DNA from: Flavobacterium jumunjinense
GTDB taxonomy: Bacteria > Bacteroidota > Bacteroidia > Flavobacteriales > Flavobacteriaceae
Direction: 5' to 3'
NCBI RefSeq assembly: GCF_021650975.2
Contig: NZ_CP091285.1
Span: 4,030,001 to 4,094,000 of the forward strand
Length of the DNA: 64,000 bases
Part shown: piece after piece, positions 21,591 through 45,084 of the stretch
Layout of the letters: each line of letters opens with the position of its first letter
Numbering within the stretch: position 1 is the stretch's first letter
Made by a program: the position numbers and the translations under genes
The notes under the pieces: generated by a model
The model's input: the letters and a program-made list of their open reading frames with translations, nothing else
Databases searched by the model: none
What the model was told of the DNA's origin: nothing

Positions 21591-21664
21591 TAATACCAAA
21601 AAAAATACACTAAAAATCAATACTTTACAATTTTAATAAAAATATTTTTTAATTATTTTTCTAC

Positions 21665-21701
21665 TACGCAAAATAATTACGCACACTGTTTTGAATATTT
21701 G
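21665..21701 (+). promoter_or_regulatory. island promoter/operator dyad upstream of Ro60 gene
   Basis: TACGCAAAATAATTACGCA at 21665-21683 (dyad CGYAA-N5-TTRCG) is followed after 14 bases by TTTG at 21698-21701, the 3' half of the Bacteroidota TAnnTTTG box. The same arrangement recurs at seven other places in this window. Confidence 0.75.
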
Positions 21702-21742: not shown

Positions 21743-23260
21743 ATGAAATTTAATTATTTTAACAAACAGAAAAATGTAACTTCTAATTATGAAGGAGCAA
21801 AAGCATTTACTTTAAATCCTGAAATGGAATTGTATACAGCTGTGGTAACAACAGGATTAAATGATGTTACCTACGAAAAAAATACAGATCGTTTAGCACG
21901 CATTCAAAAACTAATTGCACAATGCAATCCAGAATTTACCGCCAAATTAGCAATCTATGTGCGTAACCAAATGTATATGCGTTCCATTCCAATGGTATTA
22001 ACCGTAGAATTAGCCAAACATACTTATGGAAATAGTATCGTAAAAAACACAGTACAAGGTGTGGTAAAACGTGCCGATGAAATCACAGAATTATTAGCCT
22101 ATTATCAAATGGCAAATAAAAGAACAGAAACTAAAAAATTAAATCGTTTGTCGAAACAAATTCAAAAAGGTTTGGCTGAAACATTCAATAATTTTGATGA
22201 ATATCAATTTGCAAAGTACAATCGTAATGGAGCAGTAAAATTAAGAGATGCTTTGTTTTTAGTTCACCCAAAAGCAAAAGATAAAAATCAACAAACCATA
22301 TTCAATAAAATTGCAGCCGATACATTAACCACACCTTACACTTGGGAAACCGAATTGTCCGATGTTGGTCAATATAAATATGATAATGAAGAAGCTAAAA
22401 AAGCCGCTATCAAACAAAAATGGGAAGACCTAATCGACAGTAATCGAATGGGATATATGGCAACAATGCGTAACCTACGAAATAGTATAGAAGCAGAAGT
22501 ATCTTTTGCTCATATCGAAAAAATATGCCAGTATTTGAGTAATGAAAAAGCTATAGCCAATGCAAAACAATTGCCTTTCCGATTTTTAGCTGCTTATCGA
22601 GAAATCAAAGTGTTTAAATCACGATACACAACAATGATTTTAGAAGCTTTGGAAGATGCAGTAATGCATAGTGCAAAAAATATAAAAGGTTTCGATGGAA
22701 ATACATCTGTTGTAATTGCTTGTGATGTTTCTGGTTCGATGCAACAACCTATTTCACCAAAAAGTAAAATACAATTGTATGATATCGGTTTAATGTTAGG
22801 AATGTTAATGCAATCACGATGCAAAAATGTAATTAGCGGAATGTTTGGAGATACTTGGAAAATAATTAATATGTCTAACCGAAACGTATTAACCAACGTT
22901 CAAGAATTTTACCAACGTGAAGGTGAAGTTGGTTATTCTACGAACGGATATTTGGTAATCGAAGACCTAATCAATCGAAAAGAAATTGTTGATAAAGTAA
23001 TGTTGTTTACCGATGTGCAACTATGGAATAGCAACCAAACCAAGCATACATTTGAAAATTCATGGAATACTTACAAACAAATTGCACCAAAAGCAAAATT
23101 ATATTTATTTGATTTAGCAGGTTATGGACAAGTGCCTTTAGATATTAAAAGAAATGATGTATACCTAATAGCAGGTTGGTCTGACAAGATATTTGATGTG
23201 TTAGAAGCGCTAGAAAATGGCGATAGTACTTTAACGAAAATTAAACAAATTGCCATATAA
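21743..23260 (+). CDS. Ro60/TROVE-domain RNA-binding protein (bacterial Rsr)
   Basis: Ro60 proteins bind Y RNAs and misfolded RNA ends. In bacteria they act with PNPase or RNA-repair enzymes. Residues about 15-300 are the HEAT-like TROVE ring (EMELYTAVVTTGLNDVTYE, IYVRNQMYMRSIPMVLTVEL, MATMRNLRN). Residues about 320-500 are the von Willebrand A domain with an intact MIDAS motif DVSGSM at 328-333. The 505-residue length is usual. It is the first gene of the island, with the shared dyad promoter 42 bases upstream of the start. Y-RNA-like elements follow from 23981. Cytoplasmic. Confidence 0.95.
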   Translation: MKFNYFNKQKNVTSNYEGAKAFTLNPEMELYTAVVTTGLNDVTYEKNTDRLARIQKLIAQCNPEFTAKLAIYVRNQMYMRSIPMVLTVELAKHTYGNSIVKNTVQGVVKRADEITELLAYYQMANKRTETKKLNRLSKQIQKGLAETFNNFDEYQFAKYNRNGAVKLRDALFLVHPKAKDKNQQTIFNKIAADTLTTPYTWETELSDVGQYKYDNEEAKKAAIKQKWEDLIDSNRMGYMATMRNLRNSIEAEVSFAHIEKICQYLSNEKAIANAKQLPFRFLAAYREIKVFKSRYTTMILEALEDAVMHSAKNIKGFDGNTSVVIACDVSGSMQQPISPKSKIQLYDIGLMLGMLMQSRCKNVISGMFGDTWKIINMSNRNVLTNVQEFYQREGEVGYSTNGYLVIEDLINRKEIVDKVMLFTDVQLWNSNQTKHTFENSWNTYKQIAPKAKLYLFDLAGYGQVPLDIKRNDVYLIAGWSDKIFDVLEALENGDSTLTKIKQIAI

Positions 23261-23352
23261 TTTATGAATACCGCAAATTTGGAATAGTATTTGTGATATT
23301 TTTCTTAACCTAAAAAAAAATAGATGACAAAATAGCATTACACATCAAAAAT

Positions 23353-23973
23353 ATGACAACTAAAGAAAAAAATTATTACGAAAACATTACTACAAATTTA
23401 ATTGGACAAAAAATCTCAGAAGTTTATTATGAAGAAATCAATTATGAGGCCATAATTGAATTTTGGGAACATTCTACAGAAATTCATTCCATCGACATGA
23501 ATGTAATTTTGAAATTAGAAAGTGGAAGAATAATACAAATTAAATGGGACAACGAATTTCACTGTTTTGGAATAGGCTTAGAAGTTTTAGAAAAAATGAA
23601 GCAGCAACCAAGTGGAATGAAAATAATCAATGTTTCAAATCACGCAAATTGGTCAAAAATTTTAAACAAAAAAATAACTGGAATTACAGTTTTTTGGGAT
23701 ACTGTTAATAGTATAGAAAAAACCGAACTTAAAAACGATTCCGAGTTAAAAACTGTTACTAAAAAATTACCTCAAACTTGGGAAATAGAAGTTGAAGATG
23801 AAAAACTTTGGATTTCAACTTTAGAAATCAATGAAGGCGGACACGATTACTACTGGTCTGATAATTTAACCGTATTTTTTACAGAAGCATGTCTTCAAAA
23901 ATATGAATTGATTGAAAATGCTGATGAAAATTATATTCTTCGTGAAGAAATAATCATGAGTAAAATTAGCTAA
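23353..23973 (+). CDS. unknown protein, paralog 1, followed by Y-like RNAs
   Basis: The 206-residue protein is soluble and acidic, with Trp-rich strands (IIEFWEHSTEIHSIDMNVILKL, IIQIKWDNEFHCFGIGLEVLEKM, LPQTWEIEVEDEKLWISTLEI). I recognise no family. It shares its start (MTTKE..NYYE) and most of these blocks with the protein at 24338, so the two are paralogs. It follows the Ro60 gene without a shared-dyad promoter, so it is probably co-transcribed with it. The first Y-like RNA starts 8 bases after its stop codon, an arrangement repeated after the paralog and after the gene at 25302. Confidence 0.75.
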   Translation: MTTKEKNYYENITTNLIGQKISEVYYEEINYEAIIEFWEHSTEIHSIDMNVILKLESGRIIQIKWDNEFHCFGIGLEVLEKMKQQPSGMKIINVSNHANWSKILNKKITGITVFWDTVNSIEKTELKNDSELKTVTKKLPQTWEIEVEDEKLWISTLEINEGGHDYYWSDNLTVFFTEACLQKYELIENADENYILREEIIMSKIS

Positions 23974-23980
23974 GAAAAAA

Positions 23981-24143
23981 AATCAAAAAGAAAAGATGTC
24001 GTAGAATAGAGATCCTTCGAAACTAGTCAGACAGGTAGGTTCGATTCCTAAACTTGTTTAAACTATCTAGGATAGTACTCAAGATAGCTTAATGGCAAAA
24101 GCACCAAAGCCTTTTTTCGCTTTTCACTCTTTTCTTTTTGATT
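23981..24143 (+). ncRNA. Y-RNA-like RNA 1 with permuted tRNA-like module
   Basis: The ends pair perfectly over 16 bases (AATCAAAAAGAAAAGA at 23981-23996 with its complement at 24128-24143). The Ro-type internal loop TGTCGTAG / CGCTTTTCAC follows. Inside is a tRNA elbow in permuted order. The T-arm (GTAGG-TTCGATT-CCTA) comes first, then CTTG, a small ACTATC/GATAGT hairpin, CAAG, TA (positions 8-9) and the D-arm GCTT-AATGGCA-AAGC. The anticodon side is replaced by the Y stem and the acceptor end is closed. This matches bacterial YrlA-type Y RNAs. Whether it has its own promoter is unclear. Confidence 0.8.
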
Positions 24144-24150
24144 ATACTAT

Positions 24151-24286
24151 ACAACAAACAAGTGCCGTAAAAAAGAGTTCCTTCGCCTGTCACGCTAGAG
24201 TTATAAGTAGCATCTTATATAGTTAGCAATAACTATTAGTTTAATTAAAACACTATCTCTTTTTGCTTTTTACCTTGTTTTTAAAT
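24151..24286 (+). ncRNA. Y-RNA-like RNA 2 presenting an Asp-type anticodon loop
   Basis: AAACAAG at 24156 pairs with CTTGTTT at 24274, and AAAAAGAG pairs with CTCTTTTT, flanking the conserved internal loop TGCCGTA / GCTTTTTAC. Directly after CTTCG stands GCCTGTCACGC (24185-24195), the exact anticodon loop and closing pairs of a bacterial tRNA-Asp (GUC). Two further perfect hairpins follow, TATAAG/CTTATA and ATAGTTA/TAACTAT. No T- or D-arm is present. It ends just before the next dyad promoter. Confidence 0.75.
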
Positions 24287-24290
24287 GACT

Positions 24291-24326
24291 AGCGTAAAAT
24301 AGTTGCGTAGTGAAATAGTAATTTTG
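24291..24326 (+). promoter_or_regulatory. island promoter/operator dyad upstream of paralog 2
   Basis: AGCGTAAAATAGTTGCGTA at 24291-24309, then 13 bases, then TTTG at 24323-24326 within TAATTTTG, a full TAnnTTTG box. The ATG follows 11 bases later. Confidence 0.78.
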
Positions 24327-24337
24327 TAGAAGAAAAT

Positions 24338-24931
24338 ATGACAACAAAAGAAATAAATTATTACGAGAGAATTGCTTCAAGTTTAATTGGACAAAAAATA
24401 GTTGAAATTTATTATGAAGAAATAAACCAAGATCCCATCCTAGAATTTTGGGAATATTCATCAGAAATTCATTCTATTGATATGAATGTAATATTCAAAT
24501 TAGATAACGGAAAGATTATTCAAATAAAATGGAACAATGAATTTTATTGCTATGGAGTAGGTTTCGAAGTCTTAGAAAAGATAGAATTAAAAAATGATAT
24601 ATTTAAAACTATTAATGTTACTAATCATGTAAATTGGAAAAACATTTTAAATAAAAAAATAACTGAAGTCTCAGTATTTTGGGAAACTATAAATAGGTTG
24701 GTTGATGGTAGTTTAAGTGATGAAATTTTAAATAACCCATTACTTAATAAACTTCCTCAAACTTGGGAAATAAAAGTGGAAAATGAAAAAATCTGGATTT
24801 CAACTTTAGAAATTAGAAGAGAAGAAACTGTTCTTTACTGGGCTGATCATTTAACGATTTTGTTTTCAGAAAAAAGTCAGCAAAAATTCAAATTAATAGA
24901 ACTTGCTAATAAAAAATACATTGTTAAATAA
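24338..24931 (+). CDS. unknown protein, paralog 2, followed by Y-like RNAs
   Basis: A 197-residue paralog of the protein at 23353, with the same conserved blocks (GQKIVEIYYEEIN, EFWEYSSEIHSIDMNVIFKL, IQIKWNNEFYCYGVGFEVLEK, LPQTWEIKVENEKIWISTLEI). No known family is recognised and no signal peptide or membrane segment is present. It has its own dyad promoter. The duplicated Y-like RNA pair starts 6 bases after its stop. The proteins differ at many positions, while the RNAs behind them are almost identical, so the RNAs appear to be under stronger sequence constraint or were recently homogenised. Confidence 0.75.
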   Translation: MTTKEINYYERIASSLIGQKIVEIYYEEINQDPILEFWEYSSEIHSIDMNVIFKLDNGKIIQIKWNNEFYCYGVGFEVLEKIELKNDIFKTINVTNHVNWKNILNKKITEVSVFWETINRLVDGSLSDEILNNPLLNKLPQTWEIKVENEKIWISTLEIRREETVLYWADHLTILFSEKSQQKFKLIELANKKYIVK

Positions 24932-24936
24932 ATAAT

Positions 24937-25099
24937 AATCAAAAAGAAAAGATGTCGTAGAAAAGAGATCCTTCGAAACTAGTCAGACAGGTAGGTTCGA
25001 TTCCTACACTTGTTTAAACTATCTAGGATAGTACTCAAGATAGCTTAATGGCAAAAGCACCAAAGCCTTTTTTCGCTTTTCACTCTTTTCTTTTTGATT
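24937..25099 (+). ncRNA. Y-RNA-like RNA 3 (near-identical copy of RNA 1)
   Basis: Same length and sequence as RNA 1 apart from two substitutions. One restores the first T-stem pair (GTAGG...CCTAC) and one makes the stem AAAAGAG instead of AATAGAG. Both changes improve pairing, so this copy looks like the better-folded one. The permuted tRNA-like module and the 16-base terminal stem are intact. Confidence 0.8.
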
Positions 25100-25106
25100 A
25101 TACAAT

Positions 25107-25242
25107 ACAACAAACAAGTGCCGTAAAAAAGAGTTCCTTCGCCTGTCACGCTAGAGTTATAAGTAGCATCTTATATAGTTAGCAATAACTATTAGTTTAA
25201 TTAAAACACTATCTCTTTTTGCTTTTTACCTTGTTTTTAAAT
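25107..25242 (+). ncRNA. Y-RNA-like RNA 4 (copy of RNA 2)
   Basis: Identical to RNA 2 over the Y stem, the Asp-type anticodon loop GCCTGTCACGC (25141-25151) and both hairpins; the only nearby change is in the spacer before it. It ends 4 bases before the third dyad promoter. Confidence 0.75.
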
Positions 25243-25878: not shown

Positions 25879-26023
25879 AAAAACAAGTGCCATAGATAAG
25901 TGTTACTTCGCTTTTAACGACGTGGTCGCGGGTTAGAATCCCGTCTCTTCCACAAAGAATAACAAATGGGAAAGTAGCTCAGCGGTAGAGTACGATTCAC
26001 TTATTGCTTTTTGCCTTGTTTTT
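25879..26023 (+). ncRNA. Y-RNA-like RNA 5: permuted near-complete tRNA module with Lys-type anticodon loop
   Basis: AAAAACAAG (25879) pairs with CTTGTTTTT, and ATAAGTG pairs with CACTTAT, around the internal loop TGCCATAG / TGCTTTTTGC. After CTTCG stands CTTTTAACGA, the 7-base tRNA-Lys (UUU) anticodon loop. Next come a T-arm (CGGG-TTAGAAT-CCCG), CTCTTCC, ACA and a 13-base joint. The 5' tRNA half GGGAAAG-TA-GCTC-AGCGGTA-GAGT follows. The 3' half thus precedes the 5' half; the acceptor has 7 positions with one mismatch and one G-U. The T-loop C56 is A. It is not a functional tRNA gene in this order. Confidence 0.8.
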
Positions 26024-26045: not shown

Positions 26046-26183
26046 AAAAAGATCAAGTGTCGTAGAAAAGAATTACTTCGATTAAGGGTACAACGTTTCA
26101 GGTTCGATTCCTGATTCCAAGAGGAATGGTGTAATGGTAACACTCTGTAATATAGTATCTTTTCGAACATTACCTTGATTTTA
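26046..26183 (+). ncRNA. Y-RNA-like RNA 6 with compact permuted tRNA module
   Basis: ATCAAG (26052) pairs with CTTGAT (26174), and AAAAGA with TCTTTT, around TGTCGTAG / CGAACATTAC. The module reads T-arm TCAGG-TTCGATT-CCTGA, then TTCC-AAGA-GGAA as an acceptor closed by a 4-base loop, TG at positions 8-9, and the D-arm GTGT-AATGGTA-ACAC. It is the clearest permuted tRNA elbow of the set. Confidence 0.8.
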
Positions 26184-26319: not shown

Positions 26320-26551
26320 ACAAATAAGTGTCGTAGAGAAGAGTTACTTCGTAACTATAACGGTCCTAAGGTAGCGTAATTCGGGCGACCGAACGAGCGA
26401 AGTTGGGTTGAAAACCAACAGGGTAAAAGTTTTCGCTAGAAAATGCAAGTCTCTCGTAGATGTAGAATTACCGGTTCACTGTCCGAAAAAATCGGATAAG
26501 AACGGCTGCTCTTAAAGAGCAATTTCTCTTCTCGTTTTTTACCTTATTTGT
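26320..26551 (+). ncRNA. Y-RNA-like RNA 7 carrying a 23S rRNA helix-69 mimic
   Basis: ACAAATAAG (26320) pairs with CTTATTTGT (26543) and AGAAGAG with CTCTTCT around the Ro-type loop TGTCGTAG / CGTTTTTTAC. Bases 26350-26376 are a 27-base exact match, from my knowledge, to the universally conserved 23S rRNA helix 69 loop and its 3' flank (CGTAACTATAACGG, then TCCTAAGGTAGCG). AATTC, CGACC and ACGA..GCG words like those of helix 71 follow, with its hairpin shortened. Other hairpins inside: GTTGG/CCAAC, AGCGAA/TTCGCT, TCCGA/TCGGA and TGCTCT/AGAGCA. It has 232 bases in total and is no rRNA gene. Confidence 0.8.
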
Positions 26552-26560
26552 ATATAAAAT

Positions 26561-26590
26561 AAAAGAATGTCATAGTAAAGTGATACTTCG
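26561..26590 (+). ncRNA. remnant of an eighth Y-like RNA (5' strand only)
   Basis: AAAAGAATGTCATAGTAAAG and then TGATACTTCG repeats the 5' Ro-stem pattern of RNAs 1-7, but no matching 3' strand (CTTTA...AC-CTTTT) is found downstream before the HNH gene. It looks truncated, and a dispersed repeat now follows. Confidence 0.5.
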
Positions 26591-26619
26591 TCCACATTTC
26601 AATTTTTTATAACCTCAAA

Positions 26620-26675: not shown

Positions 26676-27665
26676 TTATTTTTTTAATCCTAGCTCATCT
26701 ACAATATCTCTAGTGAATTTTGACAATGGTTTTTTTTCATCATTAACTAAATCAAATTCTTTACCAAAAGCCAAAAGATAAGCATCATCAATACTCTTTA
26801 TAATATTAGGGAAATCTGATTGAAGATTTTTTAAGTAGGAGTCTGAAAAAACTCTTCGTTTATTAATTATCTCATTTAACTCTTGACTATGAACCGAATA
26901 TTGTTCTCTTAATTTAAAAAGTTTTATATTTTCCTTTGACTTTCTTATATGGTCATCATTTCCTAAAAATAAAAAATCGATTAGTGGTTTTCCTTTACCA
27001 ATTATCTCATCATAATTTTTAGGCAAATATGTAAAAATTGTTTTGTTATCAAAGCCTTCAGCATAAGGATAAATATTATCTTTAATAGATGTATTATTTT
27101 TACCTTTTGCGTTTCGATTACAAATGACACAACATGGTATCAAATTATAAAAGGATAACCGAAAATATGGATAAATCGATTTTGCTAAAAAATGATCAAA
27201 ATCTCCTCGAACAAACTTTTTATCATCATCACCTACTGTAGTTATATATGTCCTATTACAATAGGCACAAGTGTTGGTTCCAATATCAATTGAAACTTGA
27301 TAAGCTTTCCATATATCTTGAGATTCATAAAACAAAATTTGATTAATTGCTTTCTTAAATGGTGTGTCAACTCTCTTCTTTGATTCAGTTGATTTATCAA
27401 TTTCCAGTTTATAATTATCTTCAAATAGTTTTTTTAGTTCATCATTATATTTTTTAATAAACTGTCTACTTAGTGGGGATTTTATTAAATCTGGAATTTC
27501 TTTTTCAAGAAAATCTCCTAAAGGCTTATTTGTATTATTGGTATAAAATTTATTTAACAAGGCTTTATTCTCTTTTATTTTTGATAAAATAGATTTTTCA
27601 ATACGAATATAAAATTTCTCACTAATTTTTTCTAAATCTCTATTTTTTGAATTTAAATTTATCAT
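26676..27665 (-). CDS. HNH endonuclease, Septu-like PtuB partner
   Basis: A 329-residue protein. Residues 1-110 are helical. A zinc-stabilised HNH site follows: CAYCNRT at 133-139, DFDHFLAKSIYP at 155-166 (catalytic His), N174 and CCVICNRNAKGKN at 178-190. This CxxC...DxxH...N...CxxC layout is the usual one in nucleases of two-gene ATPase/HNH defence systems. It follows the ATPase gene by 2 bases on the same strand. By analogy with Septu it would cut nucleic acid when released or activated by the ATPase during phage infection. Whether DNA or RNA is cut cannot be told from the sequence. Confidence 0.8.
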   Translation of the reverse strand: MINLNSKNRDLEKISEKFYIRIEKSILSKIKENKALLNKFYTNNTNKPLGDFLEKEIPDLIKSPLSRQFIKKYNDELKKLFEDNYKLEIDKSTESKKRVDTPFKKAINQILFYESQDIWKAYQVSIDIGTNTCAYCNRTYITTVGDDDKKFVRGDFDHFLAKSIYPYFRLSFYNLIPCCVICNRNAKGKNNTSIKDNIYPYAEGFDNKTIFTYLPKNYDEIIGKGKPLIDFLFLGNDDHIRKSKENIKLFKLREQYSVHSQELNEIINKRRVFSDSYLKNLQSDFPNIIKSIDDAYLLAFGKEFDLVNDEKKPLSKFTRDIVDELGLKK

Positions 27666-27667
27666 TT

Positions 27668-30016
27668 CTAATTATTTAAATCATTTATCTTTTTCTCATA
27701 ATATCTCCTTAACCCAACTTTATCATTTTGTTCTGTTGCAAGAAAATATAATTGATATAATTTATCTCTTACCAATGAATCTCCAATTAATCCAATAAAA
27801 TTTTCTCCTCCTAATACTTCTAGCTTCTTTAATGACTTTTTCAATGAATTAGGCTTATTAAGCCTTCGATTTGAATATGCTTCATTAACTACTTTAGCAA
27901 ATTCATCTATTTTCATTCTTGAATATTCACCTATAGTAGATTTCATAAAGAAATTATCAATCAAAGAATCATGAATATTAGTTCCAAAAGTTCCATCCGT
28001 AGAAAAATCTACTCCATTATCATCATTTTTACCCTTAAGTAAAAGAGTATTCTGTTTAGGTATATCAGAAAGAATAAATGGAGAATGTGTAGAAAAAAGA
28101 AAATTTAATCCTTTTATTCTTTTTTCTGAATCTTCATTTATGTATTTTAACCTTTTAATGTTATTGAGTAAATCATTTATAAATTCCCGTTGGAAATCTG
28201 GATGGAAATATAATTCTATTTCATCAAATATAATATTCACATAATTGTATTTTATGCGATGTACTTCTTTATTTGATTTATGTACTGAGAAAATATTATT
28301 TAGATGATAAACAATTGAGTTTATTGTATGAATCTTATGTTGTTCACCAGAACTTAAATGATAAAGTCTTGGAAGTTTATTCTCTTTATCTTTATTATAA
28401 ACTATTTTATCTTTTTTTTCATCCAATATAAAATCAAATTCAAAAATAGAAGGAGGTATTCGTTCAAAAATTAAATACAATTCAGCAACACTCTTTATCT
28501 CCATCCATTCTAGCAATTCATATAAATCAAAATCAATAAATTCTTTTTCTTCATTCCAAAGCAAATTACTTTTTTTATCTAAACTTTTTTTTAAAAAGAA
28601 CATCGCTCTAGAAATTTTAAATGTAATATGTGAGTTATCACCTTTTAATTTAGGTAATACTTTTCTAAAATAAATTGTTAAATTACTATTAAATTCATTT
28701 ATAGTATATTCTGGATAATTTAGCAGTATTTTTTTTATTTTACTTATTAGATAATTAATTATAATTCTTGAATAAGGTAAATTTTTATTTTGTACATTTA
28801 TTTGAGTAAAAGTGTCGAAATAAAGTGGTAAAAGTTCCATAACTAGATTTACATCATTTATATCACCTTTTATTATAAAATTTTCTTTCTCTTCTTTAGA
28901 ACCATAATCTCCGAGTTCAATATTATTGTACTTTTTATCATCAACATTATATTTAAATCTTACCTTGTAAACATATTGATTTTCAGTTATATTTATCTTT
29001 TTAGAACTATCCTTATTATGTAAAGCTTCTATTAATAAATTTATTAGCAGGCGAGATTTTGCAAGTTCATTTTCAACATTTATATCTATGTTTCCATCAG
29101 TTCTCATTGGGTTTATTACTGCTGGTGTTTTATACCCATCATTCTTATGAAATAAAGTATTTATCCAATATCCTAAATGTTCTGAATTTAAAGCATGATG
29201 AGAATAATTCAACATAACAGAATAGAAAAAAAAATCCAAAACATCATAGTTATCAATATTCTTTGACCCTACATTTTTATCTTCTTTTTTTGCTGCAAAT
29301 TGTTTAATGTTGATAACCAATTTATCTGCCGTATTAAATTCGTAAACTAAATCATTAATCTCAAAATAGATACTACATTTTAAATTTTTTAAAATAAAGT
29401 TGTGTTCTTTTTTAGATTCTTTAATGTTCGTATCCCATACTTTTTTGTTTTTTTGTAAATCATTTAGCTTAAATTCATAATCTAGAATTTCGTCCAATTT
29501 TTCTTTAAAATCAGCAACTTGCTTGTCTGTATTTTTATTAGAATTAATTTTTTCAACGCAATCTTCCAACTCATCTCTTTTTTTAAGGAATAATGCTATC
29601 TTTTTATCATTGGAAATATTTTTCTCTAATAAATCTTCATGAAATGGTTTTAATATTGGTTCATTATTCTTTAATTTAGATGTTGTTCCTAACACATAGA
29701 TACTATATAAAAAAAGCTCAATTATAGTACTTTTTCCAGTACCATTTTTCCCAACTATTGCAGAAATATTTATTTCTAAATCACCAATTTTATATAAGCC
29801 ATCGGGCACTAATTGTTCTATAGAATAACTATCAATAGAATCTTGATTATTTATAAAATCTTTCCCAAATTTATTATAAAATTTATATTCACTGTAAAAC
29901 TGATATAATTTACCTTTCTCTAAAACTTTAGTAAATTTTATATCACAATCATTATGAGGTCTTATTGCTATTAATTTAAATCCACTCATGCTTTTTTTAT
30001 TTGTTTTAACTCCCAT
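27668..30016 (-). CDS. SMC-like AAA ATPase, Septu-like PtuA partner
   Basis: A 782-residue cytoplasmic ATPase. Walker A is GKNGTGKST at 89-97; a long helical, coiled-coil-prone insert rich in Lys/Glu/Asn follows. The signature HLSSGEQHKI lies near 565 and Walker B IIFDEIELYFHPDFQREF near 615, with FSTHSPFIL shortly after (switch His). This ABC-ATPase-like AAA family (AAA_15/21) occurs in OLD, Septu and retron-linked defence systems. The pairing with an HNH gene 2 bases downstream favours Septu. Codon use is very AT-rich, and it points against the RNA genes. Confidence 0.82.
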   Translation of the reverse strand: MGVKTNKKSMSGFKLIAIRPHNDCDIKFTKVLEKGKLYQFYSEYKFYNKFGKDFINNQDSIDSYSIEQLVPDGLYKIGDLEINISAIVGKNGTGKSTIIELFLYSIYVLGTTSKLKNNEPILKPFHEDLLEKNISNDKKIALFLKKRDELEDCVEKINSNKNTDKQVADFKEKLDEILDYEFKLNDLQKNKKVWDTNIKESKKEHNFILKNLKCSIYFEINDLVYEFNTADKLVINIKQFAAKKEDKNVGSKNIDNYDVLDFFFYSVMLNYSHHALNSEHLGYWINTLFHKNDGYKTPAVINPMRTDGNIDINVENELAKSRLLINLLIEALHNKDSSKKINITENQYVYKVRFKYNVDDKKYNNIELGDYGSKEEKENFIIKGDINDVNLVMELLPLYFDTFTQINVQNKNLPYSRIIINYLISKIKKILLNYPEYTINEFNSNLTIYFRKVLPKLKGDNSHITFKISRAMFFLKKSLDKKSNLLWNEEKEFIDFDLYELLEWMEIKSVAELYLIFERIPPSIFEFDFILDEKKDKIVYNKDKENKLPRLYHLSSGEQHKIHTINSIVYHLNNIFSVHKSNKEVHRIKYNYVNIIFDEIELYFHPDFQREFINDLLNNIKRLKYINEDSEKRIKGLNFLFSTHSPFILSDIPKQNTLLLKGKNDDNGVDFSTDGTFGTNIHDSLIDNFFMKSTIGEYSRMKIDEFAKVVNEAYSNRRLNKPNSLKKSLKKLEVLGGENFIGLIGDSLVRDKLYQLYFLATEQNDKVGLRRYYEKKINDLNN

Positions 30017-30611: not shown

Positions 30612-31718
30612 TTACTCCTCTTCATAATAGAACACCTCATGGGCTTCAAAAAGACTAGGTGGTTGCCACTTTAATAGCATTTTAAACAAAACGGTTTCGG
30701 GTACTTTTCTTTCCCGATTATGATTTTGTTGCAACCACTTTTTATGTGGTTTTTCAATATAATGAATCACAACTTTGGCTTTATAATCGGTAAATAATTC
30801 AATGAGTTGTGTACGCATTAATTGAGACGTATTCGTAGCATTCCAAACAAAATCTTGTCCAGAAGCTAAATACTGTTTGGCTCTTTTTTTGGCTTCTTGC
30901 ACTACTCTACCATTTCCAGCAATGTCTGTTGGTGCTACTTTCAATTCAATACGCAAAGCATCTAGCGAAACAATAGGTAAATCTAGATTTTGTTTAATAA
31001 AATAATCTTTTCCCATGCCTGGTAATGCCGACAATACATGAACGGTAGCTTTATAACTATCGAACGGTTCATAATCAGGATACATTTCGTCTGTATTGAA
31101 ATAATGAAAACGCCCTTCTGAAGTAGTAAATGCTCTTGGTTTTCCAAAACAATTATGCTCTTCACACATCATTTTAAATAGCGTTACCCGATCTAGCATT
31201 TCCTTTTGATCGGCACAGATTCTTCCTAAAACATCCGCTTTTGCTAAAATGTACAACCAAAGTGTATTGGTTTCTAAAGCAACTTTTAACAATTCCTTTT
31301 CTGGATTTTTCTTTTCCATTAACCAAATTGGAAATCCGTGATAACGAACCAAACCCACTAGTTGTTCTCTTTCTTTCACGGTTAATCCTCCTTTTTCAAA
31401 AAGAATATTCCGAAAGGTAAACGCTCCTTTTTTAGCATGACCTGGTGAAAGTATTCTACCCTTTTCTTCTACAGTAGTACTTCTTTTTTCAATATCATGA
31501 GCCAAAGCAGCCGCAAGAAGCATTTCTTGTTCCCAAGATGCTAATGCTTGAAATTCTTCCAAATCTTGCATGGCTTGTAGTACCATTTGTGTATGTATGG
31601 CTACATTTCCTTCTGCATGATGGATGCTATCTTGTGGCACCGATTGCATATCGGCTACCCAAGGAAACTCTTTTTCAAGAGCTTCCCAATTGCTATAATT
31701 ATTTGTAAGTGTCCACAT
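30612..31718 (-). CDS. HD-Pnk: 2',3'-phosphoesterase HD domain fused to 5'-OH polynucleotide kinase
   Basis: End-healing enzyme for broken RNA. Residues about 30-190 are an HD phosphohydrolase (H42 in AIHTQM, AHDIEK with H74/D75, RYHGFP with H127) that would remove 2',3'-cyclic or 3' phosphates. Residues about 225-368 are a P-loop kinase (LSALPGMGKDYF, 229-240) that would phosphorylate 5'-OH ends. The order N-HD, C-Pnk matches the enzyme characterised from Runella slithyformis. It overlaps the ligase gene upstream by 20 bases, so healing and sealing are co-expressed. Confidence 0.88.
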   Translation of the reverse strand: MWTLTNNYSNWEALEKEFPWVADMQSVPQDSIHHAEGNVAIHTQMVLQAMQDLEEFQALASWEQEMLLAAALAHDIEKRSTTVEEKGRILSPGHAKKGAFTFRNILFEKGGLTVKEREQLVGLVRYHGFPIWLMEKKNPEKELLKVALETNTLWLYILAKADVLGRICADQKEMLDRVTLFKMMCEEHNCFGKPRAFTTSEGRFHYFNTDEMYPDYEPFDSYKATVHVLSALPGMGKDYFIKQNLDLPIVSLDALRIELKVAPTDIAGNGRVVQEAKKRAKQYLASGQDFVWNATNTSQLMRTQLIELFTDYKAKVVIHYIEKPHKKWLQQNHNRERKVPETVLFKMLLKWQPPSLFEAHEVFYYEEE

Positions 31719-32409
31719 TTCTTTCCCAATTTAAATTTGCTCTTTTCCAGTTTCTTGTCCAATGTTCGTCTGTTTTTACATGATTTTTTCGAACATATTT
31801 AAAAACATTTTTGTAGAAATCATCTACTAAATAAGCGTTTGTATTTCTTGCCACTACACCTTCCATAGTACAAGGTTGTTTGGTATAAGTATCCAAGGAA
31901 TCAAAACGACTGGGTTGCGCAATTGTGTTTAAAATTTTTTCTTTAAAACTAGCTTGTGTTTCTTCTTTTGGTTGTATCATATCCAAAACAGGAACCGTAG
32001 GCAATTCAAGTAAATTTGCATAAAAAACGACTTCTTCCCATGATAGCCAACGCTCCTTATGTCTTACTGCAAATACGTAAAAATGTTTGTCGATATTGGG
32101 ATATTCTATGGAATGAATAGCATATAGATTCTCTCCAAAAATTTCCAATTCATTTAATTCATTACGTATTAATTGCCAGTATTCTTTAAGGTAATTTGCC
32201 CAAGGATGTAGCGTGGGTGCAGCATGCGATCGTGAAAAAACACCATACTGATTGAGACAAGTATTTTCACCGTCTAATTTTTCCGTGATTAGTAATTCAG
32301 GAATTTGTTGTATATAGTCCCAATAGTCATGACTGATTCTGTCATCGCTGGTTGTTCCAGGTGAAAAGGGAAAGTGATACGTTCTATTGTATTTTTTTGA
32401 TAAACTCAT
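31699..32409 (-). CDS. Rnl2-like ATP-dependent RNA ligase, partner of HD-Pnk
   Basis: A 236-residue nucleotidyltransferase-fold ligase. Motif I is EKLDGEN with Lys44 as the AMP acceptor, motif III FGENLYAIHSIEY at 91-103, motif IV EGVVAR at 183-188, and motif V FKYVRKNH at 203-210. The start MSLSKKYNRTYH at 32409 is preferred over an in-frame ATG at 32442 because the family begins with this KY.RTYH block. It is compact, without the C-terminal domain of T4 Rnl2. It would seal 3'-OH/5'-P ends made by the HD-Pnk encoded in the overlapping next gene. Confidence 0.88.
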   Translation of the reverse strand: MSLSKKYNRTYHFPFSPGTTSDDRISHDYWDYIQQIPELLITEKLDGENTCLNQYGVFSRSHAAPTLHPWANYLKEYWQLIRNELNELEIFGENLYAIHSIEYPNIDKHFYVFAVRHKERWLSWEEVVFYANLLELPTVPVLDMIQPKEETQASFKEKILNTIAQPSRFDSLDTYTKQPCTMEGVVARNTNAYLVDDFYKNVFKYVRKNHVKTDEHWTRNWKRANLNWERNVDTYK

Positions 32410-32588
32410 TTGTGTAATTTTTATATAATAAAGTATTGACATAACAAAACTTCCTCATAGTTTATGAGGTGAAGTCAATTGGTTTATATAAAAAGTATTA
32501 CACTGTAAATAGTCTTAAAAGGTTGCAACTTGATTTATCAATTCTGAAGTGCAAAAGTAGTCTTTTTTTTAATTTAAAAGACAATTTT

Positions 32589-38700: not shown

Positions 38701-38717
38701 TATAATTTAAAACAACC

Positions 38718-38777: not shown

Positions 38778-40055
38778 ATGCAAATTATCATACAATCAGA
38801 AAACAATCATTTACTAGACATACTTTACAAAAACCCAGCAACCGATTTGGGTTTGTATTGCAAAACATTACGCAATGGTGTTTTAGTTGGTAACGCAGTA
38901 AATAAAAACGAATATCACTGTTTGTTCCAAGATACTAAAAACAGCTATTTACCAGACGAAGGTAATCCAATCGATTTTCAAAGCTATTGCAGTCCGTTAT
39001 TGGCATTGAATATGGCAACGGAATTTTTCAATCATTTGTTCAAAAGCAACGAAACATTAGAAAGCACAACTTTGTCTTGGTTAGGAAAAACCTATGCTGA
39101 AATTGATACTTTACCAGCAAATGTAGTAGTACCTACTTTTTTTATCGATTCAGGTTGGTATAAAAACGGAACGTTCTTGTTATCAAAATACATTGACGGG
39201 ATTACGGTTACATCAAAAATAGGAAATAATTATAGTTTAAAAGTAGAAGGGAAAACCATTCGAGAAACCTTACATAAGTTTTCGGTAGTGGCATTGTTTT
39301 GTCATTTTACCAATAAACATTCTGAGTACATGTACATTGATGATTATTTCATTCAAAAGCATAGTACGATATTGGCTAATTTACCAAATGTTCCTTATTT
39401 CGTGTACTATTTGTTCATCAAACGATTAATGCGTTCACCAGAACAGTTTAGAACCTTCAAGCCACAATTAGAAGCGTATTTTAACAACACAGTTCAGTTT
39501 GTTTTTACCGACACACATCAATCTCGTAAAGAATTTATTTGCAATAGAATTGAAAATAACGAAGCTGTTTTGGATTTTGGATGTGGAAACTTACAATATT
39601 TCAAGAAATTACGTAAAAGTGGTTTCACAGCAGACTATTTAGCACATGATGAAGAGGATTTTGAAGACACCGTAGATAAAATAATTGGCTATGAAAATGT
39701 GGAGAACTTGCATTGGATAGCCAATAAAGAAGACTTAATTGGTTTTGAAGGACAAGTAATTTTGAGTGAAGTGATCGAACACAATACATTAGAAGAAGCT
39801 ACGGAATTGTTGCATTGGATAAAAGAGAACATTCATTTTACAACTTTGTTTATCACTACTCCAAATAGCGAATTCAACGTAAATTATGAAATGGCAGAAG
39901 AATTCCGTCATGATGACCACGATTTCGAATTAACAAAACAAGAATTCATAGAATTAATCACTTCGATATTTCCAAATAAAATGGAATATCACGGCATTGG
40001 AGACTGCGTTAACGGCATATATCCAACAAGTGCTATGATTGTTTATAAACAGTAA
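38778..40055 (+). CDS. hen1: Hen1 3'-terminal RNA ribose 2'-O-methyltransferase
   Basis: Bacterial Hen1 methylates the 2'-OH of the cut end before ligation, so that a repaired tRNA cannot be cut again by the same ribotoxin. Residues about 1-235 are the Hen1 N-terminal domain that activates the Pnkp ligase. The methyltransferase follows, with the AdoMet loop LDFGCG at 265-270 and the metal site EVIEH at 331-335. TPNSEFN and RHDDHDFE at 377-384 complete the Hen1 signature. The 425-residue length is typical of a bacterial Hen1. It heads the cluster with the ligase and kinase genes and carries the shared dyad promoter. Confidence 0.92.
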   Translation: MQIIIQSENNHLLDILYKNPATDLGLYCKTLRNGVLVGNAVNKNEYHCLFQDTKNSYLPDEGNPIDFQSYCSPLLALNMATEFFNHLFKSNETLESTTLSWLGKTYAEIDTLPANVVVPTFFIDSGWYKNGTFLLSKYIDGITVTSKIGNNYSLKVEGKTIRETLHKFSVVALFCHFTNKHSEYMYIDDYFIQKHSTILANLPNVPYFVYYLFIKRLMRSPEQFRTFKPQLEAYFNNTVQFVFTDTHQSRKEFICNRIENNEAVLDFGCGNLQYFKKLRKSGFTADYLAHDEEDFEDTVDKIIGYENVENLHWIANKEDLIGFEGQVILSEVIEHNTLEEATELLHWIKENIHFTTLFITTPNSEFNVNYEMAEEFRHDDHDFELTKQEFIELITSIFPNKMEYHGIGDCVNGIYPTSAMIVYKQ

Positions 40056-40063
40056 ACTCAGCA

Positions 40064-40172
40064 CGTCAGTTCGAGTGTTTTTAATGGAACAAGGTGGAGT
40101 TAAAAATGTATCGAGAACTCGTGTACTGAATACAAAAACTTCTCGATACACTTCGTATACTCGAAGTGACAT
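40064..40172. repeat. dispersed repeat (TTCGAG...CTTCTCGATA family), copy 2
   Basis: The most complete copy: GTCAGTTCGAGTGTTTTTAA, ATGTATCGAGAACTCGTG, CTTCTCGATACACTTCG, TACTCGAAGTGACAT. It fills the gap between hen1 and the ligase gene. Confidence 0.8.
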
Positions 40173-40211
40173 AGCAGATAAATAATAACATCACAACTAA
40201 TAATCAAAAAA

Positions 40212-41396
40212 ATGATCGACATACCTACCAAAAAAAGAATAGAATGGTTCAGCAACAATCAAATTAACGATTTTGCACCTACCATTTCACCAGCTCCAAA
40301 ATATTTGAGCACAAACGAAATAGAAAGCATTCGGCAAGCAGTAAAATTCTTCTTGCAAGAAAATCAAACTGAAATTGTAGTACAAAAAAAGTACATGGGT
40401 TCGTACTGTAGTATTTACTTAAAACGCAATTTAGAAGAGACCTATTTTATTTCTCGTAACGGACATAAAATAAACCATATCGATTTGGAAGGGGCTATTG
40501 CAAGTTTGAAATCGTTACATGAAAAAATGCTGCTTCAATATCCCGATTTTGATACGCTAATTATCGCGTCAGAATTATTGCCTTGGAGCGTTTTGGGTGG
40601 TGGATTAATTGAAAGGGAATATACTGCCTATCATGATGCGTTGGAAACACATACGAATTATCTAGAAAAAAGTGATTTGTATTGTAAAATTGATACAGTC
40701 AAAGCTTCAGAAAATTATGTGGAGTATCTTGAAGACAAGAAAGCATTAAAAAATAAAGAGTTAAAAGCAAAATATCCAGGTCACGTTATAAGACAATACG
40801 ATGCTATTGCTAATTTGAAAGTAGTCGATATTCCAAAACAAAAGGAATCTTTGACCATTTTTAAAACACAGATTGATACGTTTGGAAAAGACGATAATCT
40901 TCATTTTAAACCCTTCAATATCTTAAAGGTAGTACATAATGATGGTAAAGAAACACTTCCGAATAGTAATTTAACCTATTCATTAGTAAATGACGATGTC
41001 TTTTTACATTTGAATTTTACACCCGAAAATGAAGCAGAAAACTTAACCAAAATCTATGATTTTTTTAATACGTTAACTACTGAAAACGAAGAAGGTATTA
41101 TGATAAAACCAGCTAAAAGTTATGTAAAAGGAGTGCCACCTTGCTTTAAAGTAAGAAACAACAATTATCTCACGATGATTTACGGAATCAATTTTAATGT
41201 TAATTTTGACTATTATTTAGAACGCAGGAACATCAAAAGAAAATTGGAACAGTCAATCAATGGTTGGGAAATTAACCAACAAATGTTGGAAATTCCATAT
41301 AAATCCTTGAATGCGGAAAATTACTTAATGAAATTATTGTTGTTAAAACGAATCAATAACGAAGAAATTGAAAAAACGTTAGATCCAAGGTTATAG
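40212..41396 (+). CDS. stand-alone Pnkp-type RNA ligase
   Basis: A 394-residue adenylyltransferase-ligase like the C-terminal module of bacterial Pnkp (partner of Hen1). Motif I is QKKYMGSY with Lys60 (K-x-M-G-S as in Pnkp), motif III ASELLPWSV at 119-127, motif IV EGIMIKP at 294-300 and motif V FKVR at 312-315. A helical C-terminal module follows. In most bacteria kinase, phosphatase and ligase form one Pnkp chain; here the ligase is separate and the kinase-phosphatase is the next gene. It needs Hen1, encoded just upstream, for activity in the known system. Confidence 0.88.
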   Translation: MIDIPTKKRIEWFSNNQINDFAPTISPAPKYLSTNEIESIRQAVKFFLQENQTEIVVQKKYMGSYCSIYLKRNLEETYFISRNGHKINHIDLEGAIASLKSLHEKMLLQYPDFDTLIIASELLPWSVLGGGLIEREYTAYHDALETHTNYLEKSDLYCKIDTVKASENYVEYLEDKKALKNKELKAKYPGHVIRQYDAIANLKVVDIPKQKESLTIFKTQIDTFGKDDNLHFKPFNILKVVHNDGKETLPNSNLTYSLVNDDVFLHLNFTPENEAENLTKIYDFFNTLTTENEEGIMIKPAKSYVKGVPPCFKVRNNNYLTMIYGINFNVNFDYYLERRNIKRKLEQSINGWEINQQMLEIPYKSLNAENYLMKLLLLKRINNEEIEKTLDPRL

Positions 41397-41406
41397 CCTT
41401 TTTTAC

Positions 41407-41511
41407 CGTCAGTTCGATTATTTTTGTGGAGTGTAATGGAACAAAAATGTATCGAGAACACATGTACTGAATACAAAAACTTCTCGATACGCTTCGCACT
41501 CGAAGAGACAT
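41407..41511. repeat. dispersed repeat (TTCGAG...CTTCTCGATA family), copy 3
   Basis: A slightly shorter copy with the words GTCAGTTCGA, AATGTATCGAGAAC, CTTCTCGATACGCTTCGC and CACTCGAAGAGACAT, between the ligase and kinase genes. Confidence 0.78.
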
Positions 41512-41583
41512 AAATCGAGAAAATTAGAAATAAAGAATTAACATGAATGAGTAGTACAATTCGTGTTCAAAAAATATATTAAA

Positions 41584-42486
41584 ATGAAAAAAACACCAAA
41601 ACTAATACTCTTAATAGGTTGCCCAGCTTCTGGGAAAAGTACGTTTGCCGAATGGCTTGTAAAATCTGAATCAAAAACATTTCGTGTAAGTCGAGATGAA
41701 ATCCGATTTTCGCAATTCCAGGAACAAACTAATGATGCTGTGGAGAAAATGATTACCAAAATGGTTCACGAGCAAGTAAAAACACTATTATCAAATGGTT
41801 GGAATGTAGTTTTGGATAATTGTCATACTAAAAAGGACTACATTAAAACTGCCATTAAAGAATATAGTGATTTGGCAAATATTGAATTCAAATTGTTTGA
41901 TGTTCCTTTAGATGAATTGTTAGAACGTAACGCAAAACGAACAAGAGTGGTTCCAAAACCAGTTATTGAAAACATGTTCAAACAATTGGAACATCTTAAA
42001 ACGAATTTCGATTTCGAACCTATTAAAAAAAATAGACGAAAAGATTTAGAATATGGAGAGCAAGATACTTCCTTGCCAAAAGCTATAATTTGTGATTTAG
42101 ATGGAACATTAGCCTTAATGAATGGAAGAAATCCTTTTGATGCTAGTAAATGTGATGAAGATTTGTTGAACGAACCCGTTGCGAATATCTTGAAAAACTA
42201 TAAAAACATAGGTCATACAATTATTTTACTTTCTGGAAGAGAAGACAGATACAAAGAACCTACGTTACGATTTTTAGAAAAATACAACATTGAATACGAT
42301 CATTTATTCATGCGAAAAAGCAAAGACAGCCGAAAAGATAGCGTTATTAAAACGGAATTATTCGATACCGAAATTCGTAACAAATATTTCATAGAATTTG
42401 TATTAGACGATAGAAACCAAGTAGTTGATATGTGGAGAAACGACCTGAAGCTACCTTGTTTTCAAGTATATTACGGGAATTTTTAA
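41584..42486 (+). CDS. T4-type polynucleotide kinase / 3'-phosphatase
   Basis: A 300-residue end-healing enzyme with the same layout as T4 Pnkp (301 residues). The N-terminal kinase has Walker A GCPASGKST at 12-20 and RVSRDEIR; the C-terminal HAD phosphatase has DLDGTLA at 171-177, LSGREDR and a late VLDDRNQVV. I chose the ATG at 41584; a GTG at 41563 would add seven residues. It supplies 5'-phosphate and 3'-OH ends to the Pnkp-like ligase gene directly upstream. The HAD phosphatase contrasts with the calcineurin-type phosphatase of canonical bacterial Pnkp. Confidence 0.92.
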   Translation: MKKTPKLILLIGCPASGKSTFAEWLVKSESKTFRVSRDEIRFSQFQEQTNDAVEKMITKMVHEQVKTLLSNGWNVVLDNCHTKKDYIKTAIKEYSDLANIEFKLFDVPLDELLERNAKRTRVVPKPVIENMFKQLEHLKTNFDFEPIKKNRRKDLEYGEQDTSLPKAIICDLDGTLALMNGRNPFDASKCDEDLLNEPVANILKNYKNIGHTIILLSGREDRYKEPTLRFLEKYNIEYDHLFMRKSKDSRKDSVIKTELFDTEIRNKYFIEFVLDDRNQVVDMWRNDLKLPCFQVYYGNF

Positions 42487-44064: not shown

Positions 44065-45084
44065 ATGAATACTACGTTACTAAACCAAATGATTTCGGAA
44101 GGTTATATCAAGTGCAACAAACATCCTGAGCAAGATTTGTACATCTATAATTATACTCAAACGGCACAATTTGAAAAACGTTGGAACGAAGTAACTTTGG
44201 CTTGTCGTGGCGTTATTATGGATGGTAATCAAAATATTGTTGCTAGACCTTTTACTAAGTTTTTCAATTTGGGCGAACAAGAAGGTGTCGAAATTCCAAA
44301 GGCCTCTTTTGAAGTCTATGACAAAATGGATGGTTCATTAGGTATTTTATATTGGATTGAAAACATTCCGTACATAGCTAGTCGTGGTTCCTTTACAAGC
44401 GATCAAGCCATTAAAGCAACCGAAATGTTACATTCGACTTATAAAGATGTTTGGTCACGTTTAGATACATTCAAAACCTACCTTTTTGAAATCATTTATC
44501 CAGAAAATAGAATTGTTTTAGATTATGGTGCTACAGAAGCTTTGGTTTTATTAGGTATCATTGATACGCAAACAGGTGTAGAATTGCCTTTAGAAGACAT
44601 TGGTTTCCCAATTGTTGAAAAATATGATGGGATTAACGATATTGCCTCTTTAAAAAATTTGGAAAAAGACAACAAAGAAGGTTTTGTTATTAAGTTTGAA
44701 AACGGTTTCCGATTGAAAGTTAAGTTTGACGAATACGTTCGTTTGCATCGTATTATTACTCAACTAACCAGTATTGATATTTGGCACCATTTAAAAGAGA
44801 AACAACCTTTAGATACTATGCTCGAACACGTTCCAGACGAATTTTTTAACTGGGTAAAGAAAACCATTAAAGAATTAAACGAAGCGTTTCAGACAATCGA
44901 AATTCAATGTAAAAACGATTTTAAAATATTAGAAACACGTAAAGAAACAGCATTCTATTTTATGAGCTGTGAAAATGCAGCAGTTTTGTTTTTAATGCTT
45001 GATAACAAAAGTTACGATCACGAAATTTGGAAAAGAATTCGTCCTACTTTTGAAAAACCATTTATGAATAGCGAAGAGGAATAA
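44065..45084 (+). CDS. Rnl1-like ATP-dependent RNA ligase
   Basis: A 339-residue ligase with motif I DKMDGSLG (Lys87), motif IIIa FEIIYPENRIV at 141-151, motif IV EGFVIKF at 205-211 and motif V LKVKFDEY at 217-224. Residues 45-70 (LACRGVIMDGN...RPFTKFFNLGE) form the conserved lead-in found in T4 Rnl1-like ligases. Rnl1 seals cut anticodon loops in phage T4. The C-terminal helical domain would confer RNA specificity. It is the third ligase of the island, with its own dyad promoter, and heads a group with the two following genes. Confidence 0.9.
   Translation: MNTTLLNQMISEGYIKCNKHPEQDLYIYNYTQTAQFEKRWNEVTLACRGVIMDGNQNIVARPFTKFFNLGEQEGVEIPKASFEVYDKMDGSLGILYWIENIPYIASRGSFTSDQAIKATEMLHSTYKDVWSRLDTFKTYLFEIIYPENRIVLDYGATEALVLLGIIDTQTGVELPLEDIGFPIVEKYDGINDIASLKNLEKDNKEGFVIKFENGFRLKVKFDEYVRLHRIITQLTSIDIWHHLKEKQPLDTMLEHVPDEFFNWVKKTIKELNEAFQTIEIQCKNDFKILETRKETAFYFMSCENAAVLFLMLDNKSYDHEIWKRIRPTFEKPFMNSEEE

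Follow-up and report, generated by a model that had tools for sequence, protein, structure and literature searches.

A Ro60-type Y RNA of Flavobacterium jumunjinense predicted to carry a 23S rRNA helix-69 lookalike

Y7, a predicted Y RNA encoded beside a Ro60 gene of Flavobacterium jumunjinense, is a bacterial Ro60-type Y RNA that carries a segment looking like 23S rRNA. This assignment is drawn from an exact rRNA copy, a covarying Ro-type stem, linkage to Ro60, sister rRNA modules and an RNA-repair setting. The sequence studied was a stretch of 64,000 nt (the window) of contig NZ_CP091285.1 (GCF_021650975.2, positions 4,030,001-4,094,000, forward strand) from a genome of 4.68 Mb in 2 contigs, and positions are given within the window. 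Handles with L and G denote our loci and genomes. The parts of Y7 are as follows.

26320..26551, plus strand: Y7, Y-type RNA of about 232 nt with Ro stem, helix-69 segment, conserved extra module and closing stem (ends inferred from the stem)
26322..26331, plus strand: 5' strand of the outer Ro stem, AAATAAG, bulged U at 26329, GU; pairs with 26541-26549; both-side changes in 6 of 9 pairs, 100% of cells paired
26336..26343, plus strand: 5' strand of the inner stem, GAGAAGAG; pairs with 26526-26533; both-side changes in 3 of 8 pairs
26347..26351, plus strand: CTTCG, the common 5'-strand end of the window's Y RNAs, sharing CG with the helix-69 copy
26350..26376, plus strand: helix-69 copy with loop AACTATA and 3' flank, exact match to 23S
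26377..26525, plus strand: remainder of the module, with a GCGA-tetraloop hairpin, a GTTGG/CCAAC hairpin, a variable hairpin and a GTCC..GGAT hairpin; conserved in the family
26526..26549, plus strand: 3' strands of the inner and outer stems with an internal loop between them

The rRNA copy and the Ro-type stem

The 27 bases CGTAACTATAACGGTCCTAAGGTAGCG at 26350-26376 (plus strand) were identical to helix 69 of 23S rRNA and its flank at 27 of 27 positions. This word was unique in the window at up to 3 mismatches, with 0 matches expected and 0 found in 100 shuffles. A 33-base stretch from 26350 aligned at 97% to six other places in the genome whose flanks read as 23S rRNA, the sole mismatch to the organism's own 23S being A to T at what we take to be position 1936. 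The nearest 23S-reading match in the genome-wide search lay about 189 kb from the copy in Y7. Since the copy matched an 8.5-kb rRNA-operon stretch with E = 6.8e-12 and related RNAs occur in seven other genomes, a chance origin can be regarded as excluded by these alignments. No rRNA family reached the Rfam gathering score in the window, where SRP RNA was the only family that did so.

The sequence-only reading of this region had described an exact copy of helix 69, far from any rRNA operon and placed at the CTTCG end of a Y stem, and these points were borne out, with the copy starting at the CG of CTTCG. The shortened helix-71-like words that it had seen downstream did not hold up. Beyond 26382, local alignment to the rRNA operon stayed within the range of shuffled sequence in the four modules tested, and when the remainder of the module was compared with the collinear 23S stretch, 13-79% of shuffles did as well. 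An imitation of helix 70/71 was thus rejected, its operon alignments being no better than those of shuffled sequence, and so were words of the peptidyl-transferase centre, which were unsupported in the alignments to the operon and to collinear 23S.

The stem of Y7 consists of an outer AAATAAG/CTTATTT helix with a bulged U, a GU/AC extension, an internal loop and an inner helix GAGAAGAG/CTCTTCTC. The inner stem is followed by TTACTTCG, the helix-69 copy and about 150 nt with several hairpins. Among five aligned members of the family, the two Ro-stem helices (9 and 8 pairs) had 100% of cells paired, 9 of the 17 pairs had changed on both sides, and U8 of the stem was unpaired. For the whole hand-drawn structure, 95.0% of cells could pair and 12 of 53 pairs had changed on both sides, the paired percentage favouring the window because the structure was drawn from the window sequence. 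None of 500 shuffles matched this result, and slid controls gave 0-3 both-side pairs. The stem of Y7 is accordingly real as judged by covariation in the aligned members. Helices 6, 7 and 11 of the drawing had only 62-80% of cells paired. The helix-69 stem as drawn (CGT/ACG) is 3 bp long and invariant among the five members, so no covariation signal was possible there. At Y7 the YrlA model (RF02553) gave no match up to E 10, its gathering score not being reached, and the Rfam scan gave no tRNA match.

Y7-type RNAs in other genomes

Among 42 Ro60-relative loci collected from genome contigs, three further Y7-type RNAs were found (L011, L031 and L042). A covariance model, R1, added one member within the genus (L055/L093); only 2 of 299 genus genomes, the own genome and that of L055/L093, scored above 200 bits. 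Three further members, L136, L137 and L138, came from patterns run across the order to which L042's genome belongs. The total was eight RNAs in eight genomes, and a Ro60 gene lay nearby on the same strand in 8 of 8, with the RNA upstream of Ro60 in L042. The sequence-only reading had placed an rRNA lookalike on a Ro60-type Y RNA, and this recurrence beside Ro60, together with the stem that covaries in five members, upholds it. Three of the eight loci are MAG contigs; L031 comes from a 10.2-Mb, probably mixed bin, and L011 is filed under Limnohabitans. The RNA of L138 has an insertion of about 110 nt with the look, by eye, of an extra helix.

The module is rare. DNA patterns found only the own genome among 199 genomes and again among 392. 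The R1 tally of 160 of 299 genomes stands for 23S-like matches: beyond the two above 200 bits the best E was about 1e-4, and the low matches listed scored 26-27 bits, like the own 23S (26.2 bits). Other R1 hits in the scan that gave the own 23S its 26.2 bits scored below 18 bits and were taken as chance. The R1 scan covered the loci other than the short ones, L116-L135. The pattern GAAGTTGGGTTRAAAACCAACA at up to 3 mismatches matched 37 of 177 and 19 of 179 genomes, hits that are near chance because the control, the pattern written backwards, found matches in a number of genomes as well. One of the 37 (G887) was L042's genome, and longer stretches were examined from six others, in which R1 detected the RNA in L136, L137 and L138 and in none of L139-L141; one of the 19 (G888) was L031's genome. 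Two Y7 patterns gave 0 matches in viral contigs, and a third matched viral contig L053, where the 901 bases read look unrelated. No plasmid matched a Y7 pattern. Twenty phage records matched; the 10 matches listed cover helix-69 bases only, three are annotated as 23S, and they look like rRNA contamination.

The closest Ro60 among the contig relatives, that of L009 (91%), is without Y7, which argues that the module is gained and lost. In the array of L009, a Y6-like RNA stands directly before the RNA whose remnant is Y8 in the window.

The helix-69 segment is kept to different degrees. All 27 bases were exact in the window, L031 and L138, and L042 and L137 had one change each. The segment was eroded in L093 (24/27), L011 (23/27) and L136 (18/27). 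In the five well-kept members, which were chosen for good conservation and are a selected sample, the segment was 25-27/27 identical in all ten pairs, as compared with 81/138 to 112/139 (59-81%) for the rest of the module. Fisher's p for helix 69 versus the rest was 3.7e-5 to 5.2e-3 in the five pairs tested, with columns treated as independent. Measured against the window, helix 69 surpassed the rest of the module in conservation in 4 of 7 relatives and fell slightly behind it in 3 of 7, namely L093 (24/27 versus 130/139), L011 (23/27 versus 124/139) and L136 (18/27 versus 97/139). The loop AACUAUA was retained in 5 of 8 members, one with a C-to-A change; it was one base shorter in L093, three bases shorter in L011 and gone in L136. 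The remainder of the module was recognisable in 8 of 8. As the well-kept members were selected and the segment was the worse-kept part in 3 of 7 relatives, the constraint appears lineage-dependent: the rRNA bases are likely constrained in some lineages and relaxed in others. That several distant relatives keep the copy suggests that bacterial Y RNAs imitate rRNA as well as tRNA.

The Y RNA array and the RNA-repair setting

Y7 belongs to an array of seven Y RNAs and one remnant downstream of the Ro60 gene.

21743..23260, plus strand: Ro60/Rsr-type TROVE protein, 505 aa (Pfam TROVE 1.5e-28)
23981..24143, plus strand: Y1, permuted tRNA-like module (by reading)
24156..24282, plus strand: Y2, unclassified module, possibly an eroded permuted tRNA
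24937..25099, plus strand: Y3, near-copy of Y1 by tandem duplication (98% over 300 nt, two Y RNAs)
25112..25238, plus strand: Y4, near-copy of Y2
25881..26023, plus strand: Y5, permuted tRNA-like module; weak YrlA RF02553 match (24.4 bits, E 0.034, gathering 69)
26051..26181, plus strand: Y6, permuted tRNA-like module (by reading)
26565..26600, plus strand: Y8, apparent truncated remnant; whole counterpart in L009

The TROVE protein matched TROVE proteins in the PDB (9l5y/9kop, E 3.1e-26) and Xenopus Ro60 (1yvp, E 9e-4), and reached only 18.6 bits against NCBIfam Rsr, whose cut-off is 900. Ro60 was found in 27 of 392 genomes of the phylum, in 8 of 251 in the family of L036's genome, and in 0 of 86 in the family of G208, by a search without positive control. 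By reading, the tRNA-like module of the sisters Y1, Y3, Y5 and Y6 consists of T arm, acceptor and D arm, and it is not present in Y7. The tandem duplication covers one ORF and two Y RNAs (window 23348-25238). The ORFs at 23353, 24338 and 25302 matched nothing in Pfam, PADLOC or NCBIfam, and homologues of them were absent from the other Ro60 loci tested.

To count Y RNAs more widely, a loose finder gave 655 segments from 70 sources and a stricter one 305 from 80 sources; as 79 hits also arose on reversed sequence, about a quarter of the 305 may be false and the class counts are approximate. By rough motifs these comprised 68 permuted tRNA-like candidates, 77 with a T arm only, 21 of the GGGGAGGAAT type, 46 bare, 5 with helix 69 and 88 others, the last including false hits and two L036 modules; the count predates L136-L138. 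Signals of tRNA likeness, present in 145 of 305, made the commonest recognised module class, as in YrlA. An earlier, looser classification was dropped because D arms had been over-called. Four YrlA matches in L031 and L042 scored 37-38 bits, below the gathering score of 69.

Other observations concern the forms of these modules. The module GGGGAGGAAT...GGTTCGACTCCGG...GCCCC recurs at L009:10195, L014:9752, L020:10571, L042:7154 and elsewhere (21 counted) and has its own GGGG/CCCC closure, a T arm and no canonical D arm. Ordinary tRNA genes are interleaved with Y RNAs in L042:5772-7780, and the L042 Y RNA at 7378 contains a tRNA body whose order is normal (positions 6-65 of the 71 in the model), as though the acceptor stem had given way to the Y stem. 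A nearly identical 204-nt Y RNA, with a module without assigned likeness, is present in two Bacteroidales (L036:9709-9912 and L037:9638-9841). A short Y RNA with GTTTAGATACC, which we take to be reminiscent of the 16S 790-loop word, is found in L036 near 9628 and at L037:9552, and is too short to judge. The viral contigs L105, L107 and L108 encode Ro60 together with Y-like RNAs, some of which bear permuted tRNA modules, and no rRNA module stood out in them in the screen described next.

In the rRNA screen, 303 of the 305 candidate Y segments were compared with the 16S and 23S-to-5S parts of the rRNA operon of F. jumunjinense, z being taken from 40 shuffles each. The highest z values belonged to L036:7811 (23.7), Y7 of the window (12.2), L031 (12.1) and L036:11500 (11.1), followed by L042 (7.1), L093 (6.3), L030:9554 (5.8) and L011 (5.6). 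None of these eight top rows matched 16S. The L030:9554 match, 34 bases near the 23S GTPase centre, falls within the acceptor hairpin of a permuted tRNA-like module and was taken as chance. The segment L036:7811-7968 corresponds to the GTPase-associated centre, with 63.9 bits (E 1.5e-16) against Rfam LSU_rRNA_bacteria, whose gathering score is 50. The segment L036:11500-11617 matched, at 35 of 46 bases, a region of 23S that we take to be helix 34 by its numbering, and by reading the 23S stem CTTTG/CAAAG has become TTCTG/CAGAA, a compensatory change. Y stems close both modules, of which one lies immediately upstream of Ro60 and the other about 1.9 kb downstream of it; L036 is a Bacteroidales MAG contig, and each of its two 23S modules was seen once.

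The surroundings of the array are rich in RNA-repair genes, which are listed here with the operator-like site found in front of Ro60.

21662..21682, minus strand: palindromic operator-like site before Ro60; other sites start at 24292, 25248, 37454, 38715, 44007, 46743 and 53013
30612..32442, minus strand: AAA_33 kinase with a sub-threshold HD match, and RNA_ligase (PF09414)
38778..42486, plus strand: Hen1, PNKP ligase-domain protein and PNKP kinase/phosphatase, behind the palindrome site at 38715
44065..45084, plus strand: T4 Rnl1-like RNA ligase, behind the palindrome site at 44007

Further AAA_33 kinases are encoded in the window. The palindrome GCGTAANNNNNTTGCGTAGTR, a pattern written from three of its eight sites, had 8 sites in the window when up to 3 mismatches were allowed, 3 of them exact and 5 with 2-3 mismatches, as against 0.35 expected and 0 of 100 shuffles. 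One site precedes Ro60, two (24292 and 25248) lie inside the Y array, and the remaining five precede Hen1, the Rnl1-like ligase and three further genes. An operator-like motif was present upstream of Ro60 in 54 of 81 stretches versus 1 of 81 shuffled ones, a generous count because the expression was written after seeing examples and there are repeat rows (L010/L074, L035/L090, two for L028). The Y RNA array belongs to an RNA-repair neighbourhood and probably to a regulon; the palindrome likely joins Ro60, the small ORFs of the array, Hen1/Pnkp and the Rnl1-like ligase as one RNA-repair regulon.

At 76 other Ro60 loci, ORF clusters comprised a WYL regulator (43), RtcB (33), RlaP (14) and PNKP (5), and an ORF cluster without Pfam match occurred at 11 of the 76. 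In this count the Ro60 cluster was present in 75, repeats were dropped where noticed (L074, L076, L090), and one scanned representative names each cluster. The PF09414 (Rnl2-type) ligase, the AAA_33/HD kinase and the HNH/ATPase pair of the window had no homologue at the other Ro60 loci tested, Hen1/Pnkp lying outside that test. The HNH/ATPase pair by the array (26676-30016, minus strand) matched the PADLOC candidate system PDC-M62 and, more weakly, Septu PtuB/PtuA.

Proposed role and relation to known systems

We propose, with a probability of roughly 0.42, that the effector end of Y7 is its helix-69 lookalike and that such lookalike ends titrate proteins acting on tRNA or 23S, or bring them to Ro60, under RNA damage. 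Y7 would be one of an exchangeable set of Y RNAs by Ro60, others of which bear tRNA bodies, the GTPase-associated centre or helix 34. RNA damage would cause the Y array to be produced, and the stem would load each Y RNA onto the Ro60 ring, the binding of Y7 to Ro60 being predicted by homology. The free end would bind proteins whose usual targets are tRNA or exposed 23S elements; they may be ribonuclease toxins or the cell's own repair, modification or decay enzymes. These proteins would be titrated, or kept beside Ro60 and the repair enzymes. Transcription of Y7, its co-regulation, its bound partner and the outcome as decoy or delivery are all presumed steps of this scheme. The tRNA modules read here are without an anticodon arm and are therefore unlikely decoys for anticodon-loop nucleases. 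The sequence-only reading had likewise suggested a decoy, or a guide placing an enzyme next to Ro60; that suggestion fits the RNA-repair setting, and the partners it named, RluD and MazF, were not supported.

In a wider form, which we put forward tentatively, Bacteroidota Ro60 loci may hold a turning-over library of Y RNAs displaying translation surfaces (tRNA elbow, 23S helix 69, helix 34 and GTPase-associated centre) that is switched on together with RNA-repair enzymes. It would act as a bait board against RNA-damaging toxins or as a docking set that delivers Ro60 and the repair enzymes to ribosomes and tRNAs that have been damaged.

Helices 69 and 34 are intersubunit bridge elements, both touching the 30S subunit, which makes docking by the module itself the main rival. 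Y7 would then mimic the face of the 50S subunit that touches the 30S, so that a Ro60 particle docks on free or damaged 30S and brings Ro60, a nuclease or repair enzymes; helix 69 would dock on the decoding site, helix 34 on S15, and the tRNA-like and GTPase-centre modules on other translation sites. The recognised modules are RNA surfaces used within the ribosome. Colicin E3 cuts 16S. An RtcB2-PrfH operon protects against this colicin (PMC9223846), and an RtcB cluster was present at 33 of 76 Ro60 loci. However, L093 and L011 have a shorter form of the loop expected to make the 30S contact and L136 has none, and the helix-69 stem as drawn has 3 bp only; we consider docking rather unlikely.

The uneven conservation also bears on whether helix 69, a hairpin already formed, was taken up a single time and is a relic or building block that recruits nothing while the other roughly 150 nt are functional. 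Recognisability of the rest in all eight members, decay of helix 69 in three, with poorer conservation there than in the rest, and the lack of rRNA similarity in the rest of the module are what such a relic would leave. Identity of 25-27/27 against 59-81% in five diverged members is unlike a neutral relic, however, and other 23S pieces are present in another array, which makes this explanation unlikely.

It is improbable that Y7 serves one helix-69 enzyme (RluD, RlmH or a MazF-type toxin, for example) as a substrate decoy or reporter. The base at what we take to be position 1939, in the helix-69 region, is C in L042, and UUCCU, presumably the MazF-mt6 word, is absent in the five aligned members. 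Retention of the loop AACUAUA in 5 of 8 members (one with C to A) would suit such an enzyme, and the tRNA-like domain of YrlA is a substrate of TruB and DusA (PMC8394870). The loop changes in L093 and L011 and its loss in L136 stand against it, and the two different 23S pieces in one other Ro60 array would be left unexplained, so that a single enzyme is less likely as a general explanation.

A role at the DNA level, as an rDNA-type homing-endonuclease or insertion site, is very improbable. The 27 bases largely coincide with what we take to be the site of I-CeuI, an endonuclease presumed to recognise the helix-69 region, and the gene immediately downstream (26676-27665, minus strand) codes for an HNH-type protein. 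Yet this protein matches the defence families PDC-M62B and PtuB, its homologue is absent at the other Ro60 loci tested, including L093, L011, L031 and L042, and the compensatory changes are of the RNA type. An rRNA pseudogene or an assembly artefact, the two explanations that the sequence-only reading had named as what could overturn it, and likewise chance have a negligible probability, since the 23S likeness at one end of the RNA only is outweighed by the two-contig genome, the eight loci with the module by Ro60 and the covarying stem.

Bacterial Y RNAs are already known as tRNA mimics; the present finding is of the same scaffold with 23S elements, helix 69 in eight arrays and two other 23S elements in one Bacteroidales array, beside RNA-repair genes. 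The sequence-only reading knew of no described Y RNA with an rRNA module, and no report of one was found in the literature searched, a scope outside which preprints and the main YrlA papers and reviews lay. What purpose Y RNA modules serve, a question of long standing, becomes directly testable, because each module is a bait with a known natural original: the tRNA elbow, helix 69, helix 34 or the GTPase centre.

The nearest known system is YrlA (RF02553). Like Y7 it is linked to a Ro60 gene, has a long closing stem with bulge and internal loop, and ends in an effector module imitating an RNA of translation. The setting of RNA repair is shared too, and the sister RNAs of Y7 in the array carry permuted tRNA-like modules. 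The module of Y7, in contrast, is not tRNA and consists of 23S helix 69 and a domain without assigned likeness, and Y7 has about 232 nt versus a range of 90-150 nt (PMC8394870). Rsr and YrlA direct PNPase towards structured RNAs, rRNAs among them (PMC8394870). In the Deinococcus particle of Rsr, Y RNA and PNPase (RYPER), the Y RNA ties Rsr (Ro60) to the enzyme (PMC7790460, PMC8394870).

Ro60, Y RNA and RtcBA share a repair operon (PMC7790460). The Salmonella rsr-yrlBA-rtcBA operon resembles the window in keeping Ro60, Y RNAs and RNA repair together, and it has been suggested that the tRNA-like domain of YrlA might inhibit an anticodon nuclease by competition (PMC7790460). The window differs in its array of several Y RNAs, its rRNA module and its Hen1, Pnkp and Rnl genes with a shared palindrome. 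In a phage survey, a TROVE protein with a tRNA-like partner was described as a platform for RNA repair (PMC7824862). The Pnkp1-Rnl-Hen1 complex repairs ribotoxin-cleaved RNA in vitro (PMC4411300), and the window encodes Hen1, a PNKP-ligase and PNKP; in contrast to that complex, its repair genes appear linked to Ro60 and the Y RNAs by a shared operator-like site, as read from the DNA only.
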